From Pseudovibrio sp. Alg231-02 (GTDB taxonomy: Bacteria; Pseudomonadota; Alphaproteobacteria; Rhizobiales; Stappiaceae), in contig NZ_FREX01000002.1 of assembly GCF_900143565.1 (NCBI RefSeq), forward strand, positions 434,001-498,000: 64,000 nt of DNA. Direction: 5' to 3'. Position 1 is the first letter of the stretch; each line of letters starts with the position of its first letter. A program made the translations under genes and the position numbers. This document shows, piece by piece, positions 42,411-51,422 of the stretch. Under the pieces are notes generated by a model. It was not told where the DNA came from. It was given only the letters and a program-made list of their open reading frames with translations, and made no database searches.

Positions 42411-45400
42411 TTAGTCGAAGCGGCCACTTGCGTGAGCAAGCATGGTGTAGACCTTGCCGGTATCAGAGGTCAGGTAGGTCTGACCGAGCTGATTGTCGCT
42501 GTCGCTTCTGGAGACCTGAGACAGGAGTTGTTCGAAGTCCTGAATGTAACGCTCAACTGCGCTGCGGAATTCAGGATCGCGACCGTACTTCTGGCGGATC
42601 TCGTCGAAGGTCTGCTGACCTTGCAGGGTGTACAGGCGACGGGTGAAGACATCACGTTCGCCGCGCTTGTAGCGCTCCCACAGATCCACAAAGGTTTCAT
42701 GATCAACTGCACGAGCAATGTCCATACTCAGGGAGTTGAGGGATTCAACCATGTGCTGCGGGGTGCGTGCGTTTGCTGTGTCACGCGGATGTCCGCCCAT
42801 TGTGTCTTCATCGTCTGAAGCGCGGCGGAGCAGGTCGCTGATCCAGCCTTTGGATGTGCCGTTTCCCTGCGGTGCAGCCGCTGGTGTTGGCTGAGGACGC
42901 TTTGCGCGTGGAGCTGGTGCTTCCATGCGGCGAGGGGACGGGGCCATACGGGCAGGCTTTGCGCCGGTGGCTGCAACTTGCTGCAGTGTTGGTGCTTCAG
43001 CTGCTGCGTACTGGCTGGTCGCTGCCACGGCTGCCGGAGCTGCATTGACTGCGCGGGCTGGTTCTGCTGGCGTAGACACATCGAACTGAGAGGACTGGCG
43101 GGACACGATTGTGGAGAGTTCTTCCAGTGCCTTCACCTGTTCGCTCACGATGCGACGCAGTGCAGAGGTAGATGCTTCTGCTTCATCTGGCAGAGCCAGA
43201 ATACCTGCATTCAATTCAGAGCGGGTTGCTTCCAGCTCATGGTGTACTGAACGGGCAACTTCACGCATGCGGGATGTTGCATCAGTAAAGCGCTCGGATG
43301 CCTCAGTGACGGTGGACTTCATGTCATGAAGGATATCATCGTGGGCAGCTTTAACTGCGTCACGTGCCTTCTGACCTTCCATACCAGCGGTCATGCGCAT
43401 GCTTTCGAACTGCTCAGTCACAGACTTGGTCGCAGCTTCTGCAGCAGCACGGAGCATGCCGGAAACTTCGCGGGCCTTGTCGTCAGCAACTTCTAGCGTG
43501 TCACCAAGGGTGTTGGTGTAGTTCGCCATGAGCACTTCAACATCAGAGGTTTTCTTGATCAGCGTGTCTGCAACCATTTCGATTGCCATGCGGCGGTCTG
43601 TGAAGCGACTGTCAACATGGGTGTTGGTTGCTTCCAGATCCGCGATGGCCTGACCGAGAAGCTGGTTCTGGTCTTCCATGCGGCCCGCGATCTTCGCAGC
43701 GTCTGCAAGCACAGTATGTGTTGTGTTGCGGAGCTGGCCGACCTGGTTCTCGATGGTTGCGTTTGCTGCTTCAGTCTCGGTAACAGCACGGTCGATCGCG
43801 GTTCTGAACTCACCTGCACGGTTTGCGAGGTTGGTTTCAACTTCAGACAGGTTCTCACTTGCGGATGCAAGGATCTGACGAAGGCTTCCGTTGGATGCGT
43901 TGAGGCGTGTCAGGATTTCAGAGACATCTGTTTCCAGACGCTCTTTGGTGCCTGTCATCACGTTCACAGCCATCCGGGTGCGATCTTCGATGGTGTTGCC
44001 GATGCCGTCGATCGTCTGTGTCAGAGCATCGGTTGCGACTGCACCCTGACGGGTGACGGTCTCTGCAACTTCCTGACCCTTTGTGGAGACTGCGTTGAGC
44101 AGGACGTTCATGTCGGCCTGCATACGCTCGCGGCTGTCGTCCAGACGGGTTGTTGCGATGTTGCTGCGCTCATCGATTGCAGTCACGATCTTGTCGCCTG
44201 CTTCAACCAAATCGCGTGTTGCCTGCAGACCGTTCTGTGCAAAGCGGTCAGAGACTTCACGGCCCTTCACGGCCACTGCATCCAGAATTGCGTTCTGGAC
44301 TTCGTTGACGCGTGTGGTGAGGTCATGAGCGCGGTTTTCGATGGCAGTGATCAACTCGCTGCCGTCCTTGCCGATGATCTCTGAAAGCTCAGCAGAGCGG
44401 CTGCCGAAGGCATCGTTGAGGTTCTCGGCTTTAACCAGCAGCTCGTCTGCCACGGACTTGACGCGGGTGGACAGAGTGCCTGCTGCTTCTTCGATGGTGG
44501 TGAAGACGCGAGCACGAACTTCGTCGGTTTCGCCAGCCAGAAGCTTGCGGACGTCTTCTGCAGATTCTGCGAGGATCGTCTTGGAGCGCTCGCTTTCTGC
44601 GGAGAGGCGGCCAGTTACCAGCTCGATGGTCTGGGACAGATCACCACGAACCTTGTCGCTTTCGCCGGTGAGGGCGCCAGACATTTCTGCCAGAGTTGCG
44701 GTGTACATGGCGCGGGCGTTTTCGCTTTCCACGGCCAGAGCGTTAGCTGCCTGAGCCACAGTGCTGAGGACGCGCTGTGCGACTTCGTCACCTTCCTTGG
44801 TGAGCGTACCGCGGACGGTTGCCATGGCATCGGAAACAGCTGCTGCTGCTTTCTCGCCTTCGCCTTCCAGAGAGTTACGGGCTTCGCCGATGGAGTTGGA
44901 AACGATTTCCTGCAGACGCTCGCCTTCTTTGCTCAGTGTGCCGGAAAGCTGCTCTACGCTGCTGACAACCTTCTCGGTTGTGAGGTCACGTTCCTGAGCA
45001 AGACGATCGGATGCCTGACCAACGACTTCGAGGATAAGGTCGCGAACACGGGTGCTTTCGGAGCCAAGGGAAGAGGTTGCCTCTGCCATTGCGCTTGTAA
45101 GCGTGGTTGCTGCCTTCTCGCTCTCGTCTCCCATGGTGGAGGAGATTGCTTCGAGGCGATCGTTGAGGATCGTTTCGAGAGCTTTGGAGCGGGTGTCGAG
45201 TGTTTCTGCAACTTCGAACACTTTGGAGCCAAGAGAAACGTTGATCTCTGCGACCTGCTCGGACAGAGCGTCGGTGAGGTTCTTGGACTGCTGAACGATG
45301 ATGCTGCCAGCTTCTTCCAGACGACTGTCGAGCGCTTCGTTGATCTCGGTCTGACCGTCGTGGAATGCCTTGGCAATCTCGCGGGTGCGGCTGACCAGAG

Positions 45401-48400
45401 TTTCAGAGATCTGCTTGGCGCGTGCGTCCAGAGCCTGATCGATGCGCTCTGTGCCGGTGGACAGAGAGTCTGCAAGGTGTTCTGCACGGTCAGAGATAAC
45501 AGTTGCAGCTGCTTCGACTTTGTCGCCGACTGCCTGATCGAAGGTGGACAGGCTTGTAGAGATTGTCTCTTCGATAGCTTCGGAACGCTGAGCGAGGATT
45601 TCGCCAATCTTCTCTGCACGATTGGAGAGTGAGACGCCAACCTGTTCCACACGCTCGGAGAGATTGACCGCAATGATGTCGGTACGATCTTCGAGGATCC
45701 TGGAGATGGATTGGGTTTTCTCTTCCAGAGTGCTTGCGATGATGCCAGTGCCCTGTTCGACCGCGTCTGCCAGCTTGGTGGTGCGGCTTTCGATGGTCTC
45801 GGTGAGGGCTGCTGCGCGTGTATCGAAGCTCTGCTCGAAGGTGCTGGTGCGTTCTTCGAGTTTCGCGTCGAGTGTCTCGATGCGGTTGTCGAAGGATTCG
45901 CCGATGTTCTGACTGCGCAAATCGAGGGACTGAACAAGATCGGAACCGCTTTCGGTAACAACCTGTTCCAGTTCTGCCAGTTTGCTGGCCAGGCCATCGT
46001 TCAAAGCACGGCCACGGATGTCGAGGGTTTCGGTAATGCGATCGCCGATTTCGGTCAGATCAGCTGTTACGCGCTCACCACGAGAGCCGATGAGGTATGC
46101 CAGCTGTGTACCGGTGTCAGCCAGTTTGTCAGCCAGTTCCTCAGTGCGCAGGCCAAGTGCGCCGGTGATGTCAGTTGTTGTGCTTTCAAGAGCGGTCTTG
46201 AAGGCGGATGTCTGTTTGCTGATGGTGTCAGCAACTTCTGCACCGCGCTCTGCCAGACGCTGATCCAGCTCAGCACCGTTGATGGTGATGCTCTCATAGA
46301 TCTGAGTGCTGACGTTGCCAAGACGGTCAGCCAGCTCGCCGCCGCTAACTGTGATGGTTGTGCCGAGTGTGTTTGCCGTGTCATCCAGACGGGTCGCAAT
46401 GTCGCCGCCACGCAGAGACAGATCCGCAATGATGCTTTCACCAGCGCCGCGCAACACTTCGGAAACCTCAGTGGAGCGGTGGGACAGTGTGTCGATGAAG
46501 TCGGTGCACTGAACGGCGATTGCTTCGTTGATCTCGCGACCACGGTTTGCAATGCCTTCTGCTGCCTGTTCGCCAGTTGAGCGAAGGGCAGTGTCCAGAT
46601 TGGTCACACGCTCATCAACAACACCCATCATCTCTTCGGTGCGGCCTGTGATCGTATCGATCAGGCGGCCACTTGTAAGAGACAGGTTGGCGTTGATTTC
46701 TTCACCACGGGTAAGGATCTCGTCGGAAAGACGTGTGCTTGCGGAGGTGAAGTGATTGGTGATGCCAGAGATAGAGGTTTCGAGCGTTTCATGCAGCTGC
46801 GCGTTTGCACTGCCGAACTGATCGGAAACTGTTGTGACTGTCAGGTTCAGCGTATCTGTCAGCTGAGTATTGGCCGTATTTACGGTCTCGTTCAAGCTGC
46901 CAACACCGGTTTCCATAAGCGTTGAGATTTGTGTGCTTGCGGAATTGACGGTTTCGTTGAGGCTGCCGACGCCTGTATCCAGCGTTTCGGAAATGATCAT
47001 GTTTGCAGTTTTGACCGAGTCGGTCAGGCTGCCCACACCGCTGTCCATGATCGTTGAGATCTGGGAGCTTGCTGCATTGACGGTTTCGCTGAGGCTGCCG
47101 ACGCCTGTGTCCAGCGTTTCGGAAATGATTGTGTTTGCAGTTTTGACCGAGTCGGTCAGGCTGCCCACACCGCTGTCCATGATCGTTGAGATCTGGGAAC
47201 CTGCAGCATTGACGGTTTCGCTGAGTGTGACAACGCCGCCTTCCAAAGCCTCGGAGATATGCTCTTTTGCACCAGAAACAGTGGTGCTGAGACTGGAGAC
47301 GCCATCTTCCAGAGCTTCTGTGATGTTGGCGGTCGCGCCGGATACAGATGCTGTGAAGTTGGATGCGCTGGTGTCCAGTGTTTCTGTCAGCTGTGCGGAT
47401 ACGCCGTAAACACTCTCGTTGAGATTAGCTACGCCGCTTTCCATTGTCTCTGCCATAACAGAGGTTGTGTTGCTAACCGTTTGAGACAGAAGCTCAACAC
47501 CGCTGTCCAGAGACTGGGAGAGTTCGCCGCTGACGCCATCAACTGTGCGGGTGATGGTATCGATGCCACCCTTCAGGGTCTCGGTCAGGTTGTCGTTTGC
47601 TGTGGTGATCTTCTCAGTGACTTCGCTGGAAGCGGTGAGAAGTGTCGTTGTCAGCTCAGAACCTGCTGTTTCGACGCTCTGATTAATGGAAACAACGCCA
47701 AGGTTCATTGTTTCTGTCAGGGTGTCGTTCGCACTGTTGATCTGATCGGTAACAGTGGAGGTTGTTGTTGCCAGAGCTTGTGAGAGTTCGGAGCTCGCGC
47801 TTGTGACGCTTGTGCTCAACTCTGTAACGCCGTTTGAAAGAACAGCACCAATCTGCGAGCTTGCACCCTCAGCAGCAGAGCTGATGGACTGAACGGAAAC
47901 ATTGAGCGTATCGGTGAGGGACGCATTTGCTTCGGTTAGCTGCTCGGTAACGGTGGATGTGGTGATCACCAGTGTCTGTGCCAGCTCGCCGCTGGTTTGC
48001 GAAACGCTGGATGTAAACTCGGACAGACCGTTGGTCAGTGTGGAGTTGAGTTCTGTGTTTGCTGCACTGATCTGGCCAACAACTTCACCGGATGTGGTTA
48101 CCAGAGTTTGTGTCAGGTCAGAGCTTGCTCCAACAAACTGTGCCGTTACAGAAGAGACGGTCTCTTCGATAGAGGCAGTCAGCTCAGTACCCTGCGCCTG
48201 CAGAACGCCTTTCATGGCTTCTGTCTGGTCTGTGATGGTTGCAGACAGTTCTGCGCCAGCAGCGCCGAGTGTTGCGTTCAAAGCGTCGCCGCGTTCTGCC
48301 AACAGGTCGCTGATTTCATTGCCGCGAGTGGAAAGACCCTCAACAATTTCAGTTCCGGTGGAGGACAGGGATGCAGTGATTTCATCACTGCGGCTTGCCA

Positions 48401-49679
48401 GGTTGTCAACGAGCGCCTCTGAGGTTTCAGAAAGACGGGTGTTGAGGTCTGTGCCGCGCTCGGTCAGGTTATCGATGAAGGAGTTTGCAGTAGAGGAGAA
48501 CTCTTCATTGATAGAAGATCCGCGCTCGTGAAGTGTTTCGGAGAGCTTGGAGCCGGTGTCGGAGAGTGTTTCAACCAGCTCAGAGCCGGTAGAAGTGAGG
48601 CGCTCGACATAATCATCGGAGCGAACGGTCAGCGAGGAGACCATTTCGCTACCAGCTTCAGTGAAGCTGTCGGTTGCTTCTGTAACGCGATTTTCGATCT
48701 TGCTTGTCATCTGCTCAAGCGTAGCGTCGATCGAACCGGTTAGGCGTTCCCGGGCACGATCAACAGAGGAGGCGAATTCCTCTGATGTGTTCGCGAGCTG
48801 TGATGCAAGATTTTCATGGGAGCCGGAGATGGTTTCACGAACCAGCTCTGCGTTTGCCTGAATGGCTTCACGCTGGCTGACAAGTTCTTCCACCAGACGG
48901 CGAATTTTCAGTTCGTTGTCATTATAAGAGTTCTCAAGGGAAGAGACTTCCTTATGAATGAGAACTTCCAGCTCGCTGGCACGTGCAATCGCGCGTTCAA
49001 TGCCGTCGCCCATGGCGGCAGCTTCGCGGCGGATTGCCTGACCAACGTTCAGGATGCTTTCTTTTGCAACATCTTCAGGCTCAGCAAGACGAAGAGCAAC
49101 TTCCGTCATGCCGCGTGCGACGTTGCGCATTTCCTGTGCTCGCCAGAACAGGAGAGCCATAACCCAGACAAATGCAATTGGAACAACAATAAAGACGGAA
49201 ATGAGAACCAGCGTCGGGTTTTCAAATACGCCTGAGAAGGAGGATGATTTTTCAAGCTGAGCAGCGAATGAGCCCCAGGACATTGCCAAGCCAAGGCTGG
49301 CCCAGACAACGGAGACTGCAAATGCGAACCAGAACGGAGCTGCAGACGGCTTGCGCTGCAGAGCAAACATCAGTGAGCCAATGGACTGGCGGTCATCATT
49401 GCTTGCTGTGGGCGGGCGGCCACCACGGCCACGTTTGCGAACCTGTCTCGGAGCTTGATTTTCTTCTACAAGCTGAGCCAGTTTTTTATCAGAGGAAGGA
49501 GCTGTTGTTACAGACTCCGTTGCAGGACTAGCAGACATTTGCGGGGGTTCCGCAGTGGTGCTCTCCTGTTCACTGGATAAAATAGACTCTTGTGGAGCGC
49601 CAAAATCAGCCTGAAGGGCTTCTTCTACCGCTGACAGAGCCACTTCCGATGGAGCTTTCGCCTTCGGGGTGTTCGCCAT
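42411..49679 (-). CDS. Giant apolipoprotein-like repeat protein, GPR/RgsE-like polar growth protein
   Basis: At 2,422 residues it is by far the largest gene here. Order: a charged N-terminal region (1-110), two adjacent membrane segments (about 114-136 and 155-180), about 2,000 residues of helical Ser/Thr/Glu-rich repeats, a Pro/Ala linker near 2200, and a compact C-terminal domain (SLNSLSMDIARAVDHETFVD onward). In the middle, 22-residue repeats of the apolipoprotein type recur, e.g. TGVGSLSETVNAASSQIS. This plan matches GPR of Agrobacterium and RgsE of Sinorhizobium, which form a ring at the growing pole; that identity is inferred. Start at 49679 is supported by GAGGCGAG. A candidate CtrA site lies upstream. 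Confidence 0.88.
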   Translation of the reverse strand: MANTPKAKAPSEVALSAVEEALQADFGAPQESILSSEQESTTAEPPQMSASPATESVTTAPSSDKKLAQLVEENQAPRQVRKRGRGGRPPTASNDDRQSIGSLMFALQRKPSAAPFWFAFAVSVVWASLGLAMSWGSFAAQLEKSSSFSGVFENPTLVLISVFIVVPIAFVWVMALLFWRAQEMRNVARGMTEVALRLAEPEDVAKESILNVGQAIRREAAAMGDGIERAIARASELEVLIHKEVSSLENSYNDNELKIRRLVEELVSQREAIQANAELVRETISGSHENLASQLANTSEEFASSVDRARERLTGSIDATLEQMTSKIENRVTEATDSFTEAGSEMVSSLTVRSDDYVERLTSTGSELVETLSDTGSKLSETLHERGSSINEEFSSTANSFIDNLTERGTDLNTRLSETSEALVDNLASRSDEITASLSSTGTEIVEGLSTRGNEISDLLAERGDALNATLGAAGAELSATITDQTEAMKGVLQAQGTELTASIEETVSSVTAQFVGASSDLTQTLVTTSGEVVGQISAANTELNSTLTNGLSEFTSSVSQTSGELAQTLVITTSTVTEQLTEANASLTDTLNVSVQSISSAAEGASSQIGAVLSNGVTELSTSVTSASSELSQALATTTSTVTDQINSANDTLTETMNLGVVSINQSVETAGSELTTTLLTASSEVTEKITTANDNLTETLKGGIDTITRTVDGVSGELSQSLDSGVELLSQTVSNTTSVMAETMESGVANLNESVYGVSAQLTETLDTSASNFTASVSGATANITEALEDGVSSLSTTVSGAKEHISEALEGGVVTLSETVNAAGSQISTIMDSGVGSLTDSVKTANTIISETLDTGVGSLSETVNAASSQISTIMDSGVGSLTDSVKTANMIISETLDTGVGSLNETVNSASTQISTLMETGVGSLNETVNTANTQLTDTLNLTVTTVSDQFGSANAQLHETLETSISGITNHFTSASTRLSDEILTRGEEINANLSLTSGRLIDTITGRTEEMMGVVDERVTNLDTALRSTGEQAAEGIANRGREINEAIAVQCTDFIDTLSHRSTEVSEVLRGAGESIIADLSLRGGDIATRLDDTANTLGTTITVSGGELADRLGNVSTQIYESITINGAELDQRLAERGAEVADTISKQTSAFKTALESTTTDITGALGLRTEELADKLADTGTQLAYLIGSRGERVTADLTEIGDRITETLDIRGRALNDGLASKLAELEQVVTESGSDLVQSLDLRSQNIGESFDNRIETLDAKLEERTSTFEQSFDTRAAALTETIESRTTKLADAVEQGTGIIASTLEEKTQSISRILEDRTDIIAVNLSERVEQVGVSLSNRAEKIGEILAQRSEAIEETISTSLSTFDQAVGDKVEAAATVISDRAEHLADSLSTGTERIDQALDARAKQISETLVSRTREIAKAFHDGQTEINEALDSRLEEAGSIIVQQSKNLTDALSEQVAEINVSLGSKVFEVAETLDTRSKALETILNDRLEAISSTMGDESEKAATTLTSAMAEATSSLGSESTRVRDLILEVVGQASDRLAQERDLTTEKVVSSVEQLSGTLSKEGERLQEIVSNSIGEARNSLEGEGEKAAAAVSDAMATVRGTLTKEGDEVAQRVLSTVAQAANALAVESENARAMYTATLAEMSGALTGESDKVRGDLSQTIELVTGRLSAESERSKTILAESAEDVRKLLAGETDEVRARVFTTIEEAAGTLSTRVKSVADELLVKAENLNDAFGSRSAELSEIIGKDGSELITAIENRAHDLTTRVNEVQNAILDAVAVKGREVSDRFAQNGLQATRDLVEAGDKIVTAIDERSNIATTRLDDSRERMQADMNVLLNAVSTKGQEVAETVTRQGAVATDALTQTIDGIGNTIEDRTRMAVNVMTGTKERLETDVSEILTRLNASNGSLRQILASASENLSEVETNLANRAGEFRTAIDRAVTETEAANATIENQVGQLRNTTHTVLADAAKIAGRMEDQNQLLGQAIADLEATNTHVDSRFTDRRMAIEMVADTLIKKTSDVEVLMANYTNTLGDTLEVADDKAREVSGMLRAAAEAATKSVTEQFESMRMTAGMEGQKARDAVKAAHDDILHDMKSTVTEASERFTDATSRMREVARSVHHELEATRSELNAGILALPDEAEASTSALRRIVSEQVKALEELSTIVSRQSSQFDVSTPAEPARAVNAAPAAVAATSQYAAAEAPTLQQVAATGAKPARMAPSPRRMEAPAPRAKRPQPTPAAAPQGNGTSKGWISDLLRRASDDEDTMGGHPRDTANARTPQHMVESLNSLSMDIARAVDHETFVDLWERYKRGERDVFTRRLYTLQGQQTFDEIRQKYGRDPEFRSAVERYIQDFEQLLSQVSRSDSDNQLGQTYLTSDTGKVYTMLAHASGRFD
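46961..47224 (-). repeat. Two near-identical 132-base tandem copies inside the giant gene
   Basis: Bases 46961-47092 and 47093-47224 are direct tandem copies with only scattered differences (for example at the ATGATC/ATGATT and GAGCTT/GAACCT positions). Each unit encodes 44 residues, that is two 22-residue repeats. Adjacent copies, e.g. 46829-46960, are clearly diverged. This points to a recent in-frame duplication. Confidence 0.9.
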
Positions 49680-49908
49680 TTCTCGCCTCGCGTCCGTACT
49701 CTCTACTTGCCGGTCGTCAGCACATTTTTCGCCTTTTGTGCCGGCGCCGTCACCACAAGGTGTCCGTCCTACGCGAAATACATTCCTCCCAAACAAGAAC
49801 GCATTTCAGACAACAATAGGTTTGGCCCCATGCAATCCAACAGCTCTGAATTGAGAGCACCGTCGAACTTCTAGGGCCAAAAACAGGGAGTTTTCAGAAT
49901 CAAAGCGG

Positions 49909-49934
49909 ACCGTTAATGTTAACGGTACCTTAAG
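49909..49934. promoter_or_regulatory. Candidate CtrA-binding site within a perfect palindrome
   Basis: On the minus strand 49919-49933 reads TTAA-GGTACCG-TTAA followed by C, an exact match to the CtrA consensus TTAA-N7-TTAAC. Overlapping it is a perfect palindrome, ACCGTTAA-TG-TTAACGGT (49909-49926). It lies 230 bases upstream of the giant gene and about 130 bases upstream of the divergent 98-residue gene. Binding is inferred. Confidence 0.65.
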
Positions 49935-50065
49935 ATTTAGATTTCCCCACCTTGCAGCTACCCTTAACCTAATGGCACAATCCGGTGGACTGTACAACAG
50001 AAGTTGCCGGGATTTTTAGGTGCCCTACGATAAGTCACAGGCAGCAATTTTGGGGGGAACTCACT

Positions 50066-50362
50066 ATGGCTAATCGCGAAAATTCTCCAGTCAGTTCTAA
50101 AGGTTCCAATCGTCCGAGTCCCACACAACTCAAATGGTTAAGGCGAGGTCTTAACGAAGCAGGTGGAAAGTTACCGCTGTTCGATGAGAGCGGTCGACAA
50201 GTGCCAGCTGCAACTGTGCGGGCGTGTATTGCAGCAGGGTGGGCGGAGCCTTGGTTTTCCAACCCGTTGAAGCCGGATTGGCTCGTTTGTAAGCTGACCG
50301 ATACGGGACGTGCGATGCTGGAGCGTGATGGTAATTCGAAAAATCTTGTTAACCATCTTTAA
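50066..50362 (+). CDS. Conserved small protein, winged-helix-like, function unknown
   Basis: 98 residues from the ATG at 50066, chosen because TGGGGGGAA lies about 8 bases upstream; the frame extends to 49985 without support. The core, about residues 20-85 (QLKWLRRGLNEAGGKLPLFD; then WAEPWFSNPLKPDWLVCKLT), looks like a compact helix/strand domain, and the last part with LTDTGRAMLERDG resembles the wing of a winged-helix protein. It is basic at the N-terminus. I do not recognise a function. It shares its upstream region, with a candidate CtrA site, with the giant polar-growth-like gene. Confidence 0.75.
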   Translation: MANRENSPVSSKGSNRPSPTQLKWLRRGLNEAGGKLPLFDESGRQVPAATVRACIAAGWAEPWFSNPLKPDWLVCKLTDTGRAMLERDGNSKNLVNHL

Positions 50363-50419
50363 CAGAGCGTCTTGTCAATTTTAACGTGTAATGGCAGTGA
50401 GAGCCGGTGACGGGGTCAC

Positions 50420-50607
50420 GAGTCTAGATTTGAATCTGGGCGGTAGGATCTTGTTAACCATGAAATAAAAACCTGTGTTTTCTTTTGGGGACTAGATTCC
50501 GTTGCCTATGGGAAATGAGGGGTAGAGTCACTGCAGAGTCTTGGTGGTGGCAGGGTTTGAGTCACTCAAGCGAATCAACTTTCCGAATATCGCGATAACT
50601 TTGAGTC
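50420..50607. promoter_or_regulatory. Cluster of eight GANTC (CcrM-type) sites
   Basis: GANTC motifs occur at 50420, 50432, 50495, 50525, 50536, 50559, 50572 and 50603. A random 190-base stretch would hold fewer than one. Three of them are within a repeated GAGTCACT (50525, 50559, 50603). A near CtrA site, TTAA-CCATGAA-ATAA (about 50454-50468), lies among them. All are upstream of the Hpt gene. Confidence 0.7.
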
Positions 50608-50644
50608 ACTTGGCTGTGTTTGGAGGCCTAACGTAAACTTGGCT

Positions 50645-50980
50645 ATGGAACTACATAAAACTACAAGTGCTATATGTAGGGATCACTTCTCTTCTGTGAC
50701 GTTTGATGACCCGGATTTGCAAGGTCAGATCCTGGAGATGTTTGCTCACCAGATAGAAGAGTTCCGTCGGGGATTGTGCGAGACAATGGGAACAGAAGCC
50801 CTTCGTGCCTTGCTGCATCGCTTTAAAGGTTCTGCGCGCGGTGTTGGTGCGTTTGCGCTTGGGGAGGCGCTGGAGCAAGCTGAGCAGGAAGCTGCGAGCG
50901 GAGTTGTGCCATTGCTGGTGACTGTTGAGACTTGCCTTACGGAGGTGTCTGCGGATCTTTCAAAGCTGCGGAATTTGTAA
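50645..50980 (+). CDS. Histidine phosphotransfer (Hpt) domain protein
   Basis: 111 residues from the ATG at 50645, a single Hpt four-helix bundle. The phosphoryl-accepting motif is LLHRFKGSARGVGA, with H58 as the likely site and the usual HxxKG spacing. The first helix carries QILEMFAHQIEEF, typical for Hpt domains. No kinase or response regulator is adjacent, so it would serve as a free phosphorelay hub. It is not ChpT, which is a larger dimeric protein. The ribosome site is weak. Its promoter region is packed with GANTC sites. Confidence 0.9.
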   Translation: MELHKTTSAICRDHFSSVTFDDPDLQGQILEMFAHQIEEFRRGLCETMGTEALRALLHRFKGSARGVGAFALGEALEQAEQEAASGVVPLLVTVETCLTEVSADLSKLRNL

Positions 50981-51059
50981 TGCGAGATTGGCTGCGCGGG
51001 TTTGACCATAAGGTCTGGCCCAGAAGTTCTTGAATAGCTGGGCGCCTGCATGTATCTGA

Positions 51060-51422
<363 letters not shown>

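Follow-up and report, generated by a model that had tools for sequence, protein, structure and literature searches.

Eight GANTC sites lie within 188 bp directly upstream of an hpt gene in Pseudovibrio, and comparisons among relatives indicate that this array is under selection within the genus. The gene encodes a predicted stand-alone, ShpA-like Hpt protein, and homologues of both CcrM and GcrA are encoded in the same genome. We think it reasonably likely, while keeping some reserve, that the array serves as a regulatory region coupling hpt to replication, methylated by CcrM, read by GcrA and equipped with CtrA-like boxes.

The hpt locus and the GANTC array

The window, i.e., the whole stretch of DNA analysed, comprises 64,000 nt (C14:434001-498000) and belongs to a genome of 5.96 Mb (5,963,068 bases) in 26 contigs. 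From 5′ to 3′, the locus contains a giant apolipoprotein-repeat gene, a gene for a 98-aa protein, the array-bearing intergenic region, hpt, a 2Fe-2S ferredoxin gene and, on the minus strand, an MFS transporter gene (Table 1).

Table 1. Features of the hpt locus, with positions in the window
Feature	Positions	Strand	Basis or remark
Giant apolipoprotein-repeat protein, 2461 aa in this frame	42411..49796	-	Pfam apolipoprotein domains
Full TTAA-N7-TTAA (CtrA-type), between giant gene and 98-aa gene	49919..49933		motif search
98-aa conserved protein, family unassigned, upstream of hpt	50066..50362	+	ORF and homologues
Second ATCTTGTTAACCAT copy continuing into TTAACCATCTTTAAC (TTAA-N6-TTAA, at 50349)	50343..50363	+	overlaps end of 98-aa frame
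Eight-GANTC array (GAGTC x5, GAATC x2, GATTC x1)	50420..50607		counts; conserved in genus
Site 1, GAGTC	50420..50424		fits YGAKTCK on +
Site 2, GAATC	50432..50436		motif count
ATCTTGTTAACCAT, CtrA-like half-site	50448..50461	+	repeat search; family loci
Site 3, GATTC	50495..50499		motif count
Site 4, GAGTC, in GAGTCACT	50525..50529		motif count, repeat search
Site 5, GAGTC	50536..50540		pentamer identical across 9 genomes compared
Site 6, GAGTC, in GAGTCACT	50559..50563		pentamer conserved least of the eight
Site 7, GAATC	50572..50576		pentamer identical across 9 genomes compared; TGATTCG on - fits YGAKTCK
Site 8, GAGTC, in GAGTCACT	50603..50607		14 bp 5′ of ribosome-site-like GGAGG at 50622
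hpt, 113 aa from TTG 50639 (111 aa from ATG 50645)	50639..50980	+	Hpt domain, ShpA-like
2Fe-2S ferredoxin	51102..51422	+	cysteine motif

A first-pass annotation of this DNA had pointed to eight GANTC sites where fewer than one would be expected by chance, three of them in a repeated sequence. All eight were found at the reported positions, and the number expected per 188 bp was about 0.18 when based on GANTC density in the window, or 0.8 when based on dinucleotide shuffles. GANTC is rare in the window as a whole (60 observed vs 277 ± 14 in the shuffles), and the rest of it has at most two in any 188-bp stretch. The repeat is GAGTCACT, with copies at 50525, 50559 and 50603 and five further copies elsewhere in the genome sample described below. 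No significant helical phasing of the eight sites emerged (R 0.52 at 10.5 bp, a value equally high in a fraction of 0.106 of random sets). Searches for copies of the intergenic region gave none in plasmids and, in the genome itself, only the region and five others with E of at least 0.77.

The array ends 31 bp before the TTG of hpt, which is more likely to be the start codon than the downstream ATG, because ATG stands in place of this TTG in one relative (L008) and some relatives have no downstream ATG. The product matched the Pfam Hpt domain (PF01627) with 30.2 bits (cut-off 24.6) and contains the HxxKG motif, in which the phosphorylatable H60 and G64 were invariant in 20 rows and K63 nearly so. 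Its predicted structure was all-helical (pLDDT 88.7), with the helical-bundle fold of Hpt. The 26 best Foldseek hits were Hpt proteins, none of them at E ≤ 0.001; ordered by E-value, P. aeruginosa HptB came first, a rice Hpt next and ShpA third. When a family profile was searched against solved sequences, the best match was Caulobacter ShpA (2ooc, E 2.4e-12), and we accordingly describe the protein as a predicted stand-alone ShpA-like Hpt. The likeness to ShpA of the ShkA-ShpA-TacA system lies in a stand-alone Hpt of 113 aa (Foldseek probability 1.00, TM 0.71 by query), whereas the window Hpt is 28% identical in the fold alignment.

In a single-sequence PDB search, six pentatricopeptide-repeat chains outscored ShpA over a 31-residue stretch, no single stretch reaching significance; these chains were missing from the profile search. 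An identity of hpt with chpT was rejected, as ChpT is encoded in this genome by a separate gene on another contig.

No kinase was found in the five neighbouring frames tested, in keeping with the earlier designation of the gene as an orphan. The 98-aa protein gave zero Pfam or NCBIfam matches. The likeness of the giant protein to the growth pole ring protein of Agrobacterium is limited to Pfam domain and size; the latter protein, in the part of its description available to us, is a giant protein with apolipoprotein repeats and two transmembrane segments at its N-terminus, required for polar growth (PMC8262873).

In the relative G009, whose main contig measures 4.84 Mb, 1.31 Mb separates hpt from mnmG. 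The replication origin presumably lies near mnmG, as in related bacteria; if so, and if the G009 contig is circular, hpt would be located roughly halfway along a replication arm.

To rank the array, we used a genome sample made up of the window and 100 stretches (2,011,858 of 5,963,068 bases, or 34%), with 2,147 GANTC in total or 1.07 per kb. In this sample the hpt array came first, and no other 188-bp stretch equalled its eight sites. Within the 34% covered, such a density is exceptional, which speaks against the first-pass alternative of many similarly dense intergenic regions. The runners-up had seven sites (between convergent genes), six (two tandem tRNA-Gln genes), six (a histidine-kinase promoter) and five (mnmE-mnmG). 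Dense clusters are few and not unique to hpt, and the others described stay below eight; the rest of the genome may hold comparable ones.

As the second densest sampled cluster lies between convergent genes, such clusters are not confined to promoters. It separates a methyltransferase gene from a DUF1499 gene (L046:12393-12548, G000:C12) and, by eye, has apparent paired inverted arms with TGTGAGT; six to seven sites were retained in four close relatives, while five more had two to seven, mostly at other positions. One of the six-site clusters precedes a PAS-HisKA kinase gene downstream of pepN (L150:13630-13780; G000:C8, about 663.6 kb), the product of which has DivJ as its best NCBIfam match (227.7 bits vs a cut-off of 1000). 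Two of the six are TGATTCG, and a three-site core (spacings 10 and 15) was kept in 16/16 genus genomes. Site identity there was 0.957 vs 0.878 outside, but the shift test gave a modest result, weaker than at the hpt array: rank 15 of 178 for nine genomes and rank 6 of 178 for fifteen (L192 being omitted as a near copy). The mnmE cluster spans the end of that gene and the mnmE-mnmG intergenic region, with five GANTC in 188 bp and six in 400 bp (L161:1071-1425, G000:C12); five sites were found in the genome itself and four close relatives, one to seven in five other genus members bearing the 98-aa gene, and zero to four in the remaining six. An extended motif common to the clusters (15 bases, 11 fixed letters, matching three of them) was discarded, having been derived from the same clusters and hence providing no evidence.

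Conservation of the array and of the CtrA-like box

A search for hpt over 61 genomes (own included) gave a match at E ≤ 0.001 in 52 and no match in nine. For the alignment of the intergenic region we used the ten Pseudovibrio genomes with the 98-aa gene (own included). One of these sequences, L002, is near-identical to L001 and was left out of the identity averages and of the shift test, but kept in the site counts and in the middle-base count.

Across the remaining nine genomes, the mean pairwise identity was 0.945 in the GANTC pentamers vs 0.784 in the other 236 columns (resampling p about 2e-4). It fell to 0.81 one base 5′ of the pentamer and to 0.74 one base 3′, so that the conserved islands are about five bases wide. 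When the eight positions were jointly shifted in a circular manner, the true placement ranked 1 of 276, the best other placement reaching 0.935.

Site counts pointed in the same direction. L002 and L003, which are close to the window sequence, retained 7 and 8 of the 8 sites, respectively. Six relatives are more divergent but have an unbroken hpt frame too; these retained 7-8, against 2.2-4.9 expected from flanking divergence. The binomial P for this retention was 0.0008-0.02 per divergent relative, values that are not independent, as the genomes share ancestry. Among relatives with the sites retained, flanking DNA identity was down to 73%. The array is thus present in all eight relatives with an unbroken hpt frame, which answers the first-pass question of its absence from close relatives, and these alignments show it to be under selection within Pseudovibrio. 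L002 (genome G003) has lost one GANTC through an 11-bp deletion located between two copies of AGAGTC; the aligned remainder of its intergenic region is identical to that of the window.

The ninth relative, G008 (L010), had 4 of 8 sites, where 3.9 would be expected, and a further GANTC at another position of the region. Its hpt match is broken across two frames, one of which contains a stop, in an uncultured, fragmented assembly, and it may represent either a real pseudogene or an assembly error. Decay of the array alongside a split hpt would look like relaxation of selection, in one genome.

Outside the genus the picture changes. The 98-aa protein was found in 77/87 family genomes, and 30 of these 77 loci were examined (ten from Pseudovibrio, twenty from other genera). 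A TTAACC box was located 87-129 bp past the 98-aa stop codon in all 30. The twenty loci from other genera had few GANTC in the 300 bp after this stop (none in 4 loci, one in 13, two in 2 and three in 1), which places the expansion of the array within Pseudovibrio, as far as these loci tell. At 14 of the 20, a GATTC was found three bases from TTAACC. The CtrA-like box is thus older than the genus. Six genus members gave no 98-aa match; five of them had an hpt match, with two to five GANTC in the 350 bp upstream.

Among the hpt matches listed (own included), the ferredoxin cysteine motif followed hpt at 29/30 loci, and TTAACC occurred within 350 bp upstream of the hpt match at 27/30. The 98-aa motif was also seen upstream of hpt in many loci. 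At the level of the class, 24 of 115 genomes (own included) were positive at E ≤ 1e-7, in several cases through a large multidomain protein; ferredoxin followed in 2 and TTAACC preceded in 6 of the 25 class loci examined (L256 and L257 left out).

In the window, TTAACCAT boxes are found at 50349 and 50454, each within an exact 14-nt repeat, ATCTTGTTAACCAT (50343, 50448). The near-CtrA site that the first-pass annotation had placed among the GANTC sites therefore holds as a conserved, CtrA-like TTAACC half-site, but not as a full site: TTAA-N7-TTAA was absent from the intergenic region upstream of hpt, the nearest being at 49919. That one is among two full sites in total in the 64 kb. We treat CtrA binding at the hpt boxes as putative, because the box falls short of a complete CtrA site and because TTTGTTAACCAT appears, in the portion of the study available, as an unassigned promoter motif before 19 S. 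meliloti genes (PMC3616915). We also considered whether GTTAACCAT tends to lie beside GANTC arrays, as did three of its six sampled copies; two of these, however, are in the hpt locus, and the copy at the kinase gene forms part of an inverted repeat after pepN (judged by eye), so that it is not independent support for CtrA at the kinase gene.

Methylation and other readings of the array

A CcrM homologue is encoded in the genome, with the Pfam N6_N4_Mtase and RAMA domains above cut-off; the NCBIfam CcrM model gave a near full-length match of 625.8 bits, under its 830-bit cut-off. GcrA is also encoded (179 bits, cut-off 26.9), by a search that in control genomes matched in Caulobacter but also in Sulfolobus.

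From this setting we infer methylation, binding, timing and Hpt partners as follows. CcrM would methylate all eight sites of the array, and passage of the fork would leave them hemimethylated until CcrM acts again. Several of them would be read by GcrA together with sigma-70 RNA polymerase, which in Caulobacter prefers (hemi)methylated GANTC, while CtrA would occupy the TTGTTAACCAT boxes. Production of the ShpA-like Hpt would thereby fall within a defined portion of the cell cycle, and the protein would feed a phosphorelay. No sigma-70 consensus promoter was found at 49700-51110.

According to the available part of the Caulobacter study, efficient GcrA binding needs CcrM at mipZ, podJ, pleC and other genes, and mutation of GANTC lowered the activity of reporter promoters by 60-80% (PMC3667746). 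For Ensifer, what is available of the report indicates that a promoter GANTC is not diagnostic of CcrM control (PMC8725594). GcrA is described, in the accessible portion of one paper, as having a directional preference for YGAKTCK, that of Brevundimonas being reportedly less choosy (PMC7987155). This extended motif fits two of the eight array sites, against a background of 364 among 2,146 sampled GANTC (17%), and is not clearly enriched. The first-pass proposal of a promoter read through methylation and GcrA is plausible and finds partial support in the density, the conservation, the presence of both genes and the conserved CtrA-like boxes; it is weakened by the scarcity of YGAKTCK.

The main competitor, to which we give a distinctly smaller chance, is that the pentamers are half-sites for a sequence-specific binder reading GAGTC(AC)/GAATC regardless of methylation, the overlap with CcrM being incidental or secondary. 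The middle base was conserved like the outer four: it was unchanged in 63/63 aligned sites that were retained, although the flanking rate predicts 9.1 changes, shared ancestry ignored, and the middle column was invariant at 6/8 array sites vs 43% of the other columns. CcrM methylation alone does not demand a fixed middle base. The prevalence of GAGTC (five of the eight sites, with GACTC in none), the location of three sites in an 11-nt direct repeat and the lack of clear YGAKTCK enrichment fit such a binder as well. Against it, the GAATC/GATTC sites are conserved too (identity 0.96, 0.91 and 1.00), so a single motif misses some; no candidate protein is known; GANTC is depleted elsewhere, like in other CcrM bacteria; and at the kinase promoter the middle base varies in three genomes while GANTC stays (GATTC is replaced by GAATC in L201 and L203, and by GACTC in L197).

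With YGAKTCK not clearly enriched and the middle base fixed in 63 sites, either GcrA is less choosy here or the array has another base-specific reader. A more elaborate version, which we regard as speculative and rather unlikely, is a multi-site methylation sensor with a base-specific reader (GcrA in an unusual mode or a new protein), in which hpt output tracks the number of hemimethylated sites. If true, such a sensor array would make an Hpt phosphorelay dependent on the passing of the replication fork, beside a polar-growth-like gene with a CtrA-type site.

Still less probable, in our opinion, is a role unrelated to hpt, such as local chromosome organisation, delayed remethylation or a function for the neighbouring 98-aa and giant genes. 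The sampled clusters do include a convergent intergenic region, and CtrA-type elements flank the 98-aa gene on both sides. However, the array sits immediately upstream of hpt, and the genome with the split hpt retains no more sites than neutrality predicts (again, one uncultured, fragmented assembly and possibly an assembly error).

Depending on the transcription start, several sites may fall in a 5′ untranslated region, and the pentamers might then be elements of an RNA leader (riboswitch-like or attenuator). This we consider very improbable, given zero Rfam matches up to E 1, a fold z-score of -0.70 for 50440-50640, and no inverted repeats, tRNA or terminator-like site found. A chance or mutational cluster without function, which could arise in a large genome if sites were overdispersed, is scarcely credible at a Poisson expectation of 1.3e-5 per genome combined with selective retention.

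Relation to known systems

Irrespective of the actual reader, the array recalls several described cases. Like Caulobacter mipZ, podJ, pleC and ctrA P1, it has GANTC before a cell-cycle or phosphorelay gene, in a genome encoding CcrM and GcrA; the Caulobacter probes, in the part of the paper available, carry one to three sites, whereas the hpt array has eight, mostly without the extended GcrA motif (PMC3667746). The ctrA promoters of Sphingomonadales and Caulobacterales are similar in having multiple GANTC (up to five or six per 300 bp, in the accessible text) before a phosphorelay gene, and differ in that the Pseudovibrio case concerns an hpt gene and eight sites per 188 bp (PMC8116508). In Agrobacterium, the excerpted report on chromosome 2 repABC/ori2 describes grouped GANTC, three per region, some affecting promoter or origin activity; that is a replication module, whereas the Pseudovibrio array precedes a signalling gene (PMC11514494).

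The first-pass view that a link between methylation and phosphorelay was undescribed does not hold, since action of GcrA and CcrM at ctrA and pleC has been published, as the available parts of two papers show (PMC3667746, PMC8116508). Our literature search found no report of this hpt or of a GANTC array before one, and likewise none for Pseudovibrio and GANTC. The kind of regulation is thus known, and the layout is extreme and genus-specific.

The ShpA-like Hpt beside a ferredoxin gene is conserved across the relatives searched, and the literature search found no study of it. The gene concerned is a phosphorelay intermediate, neither a kinase nor a response regulator. Its upstream region offers an unusually clear natural case of methylation sites that are selected as five-base islands, and the locus would provide a compact testbed for whether the number and identity of GANTC sites time transcription after passage of the replication fork.
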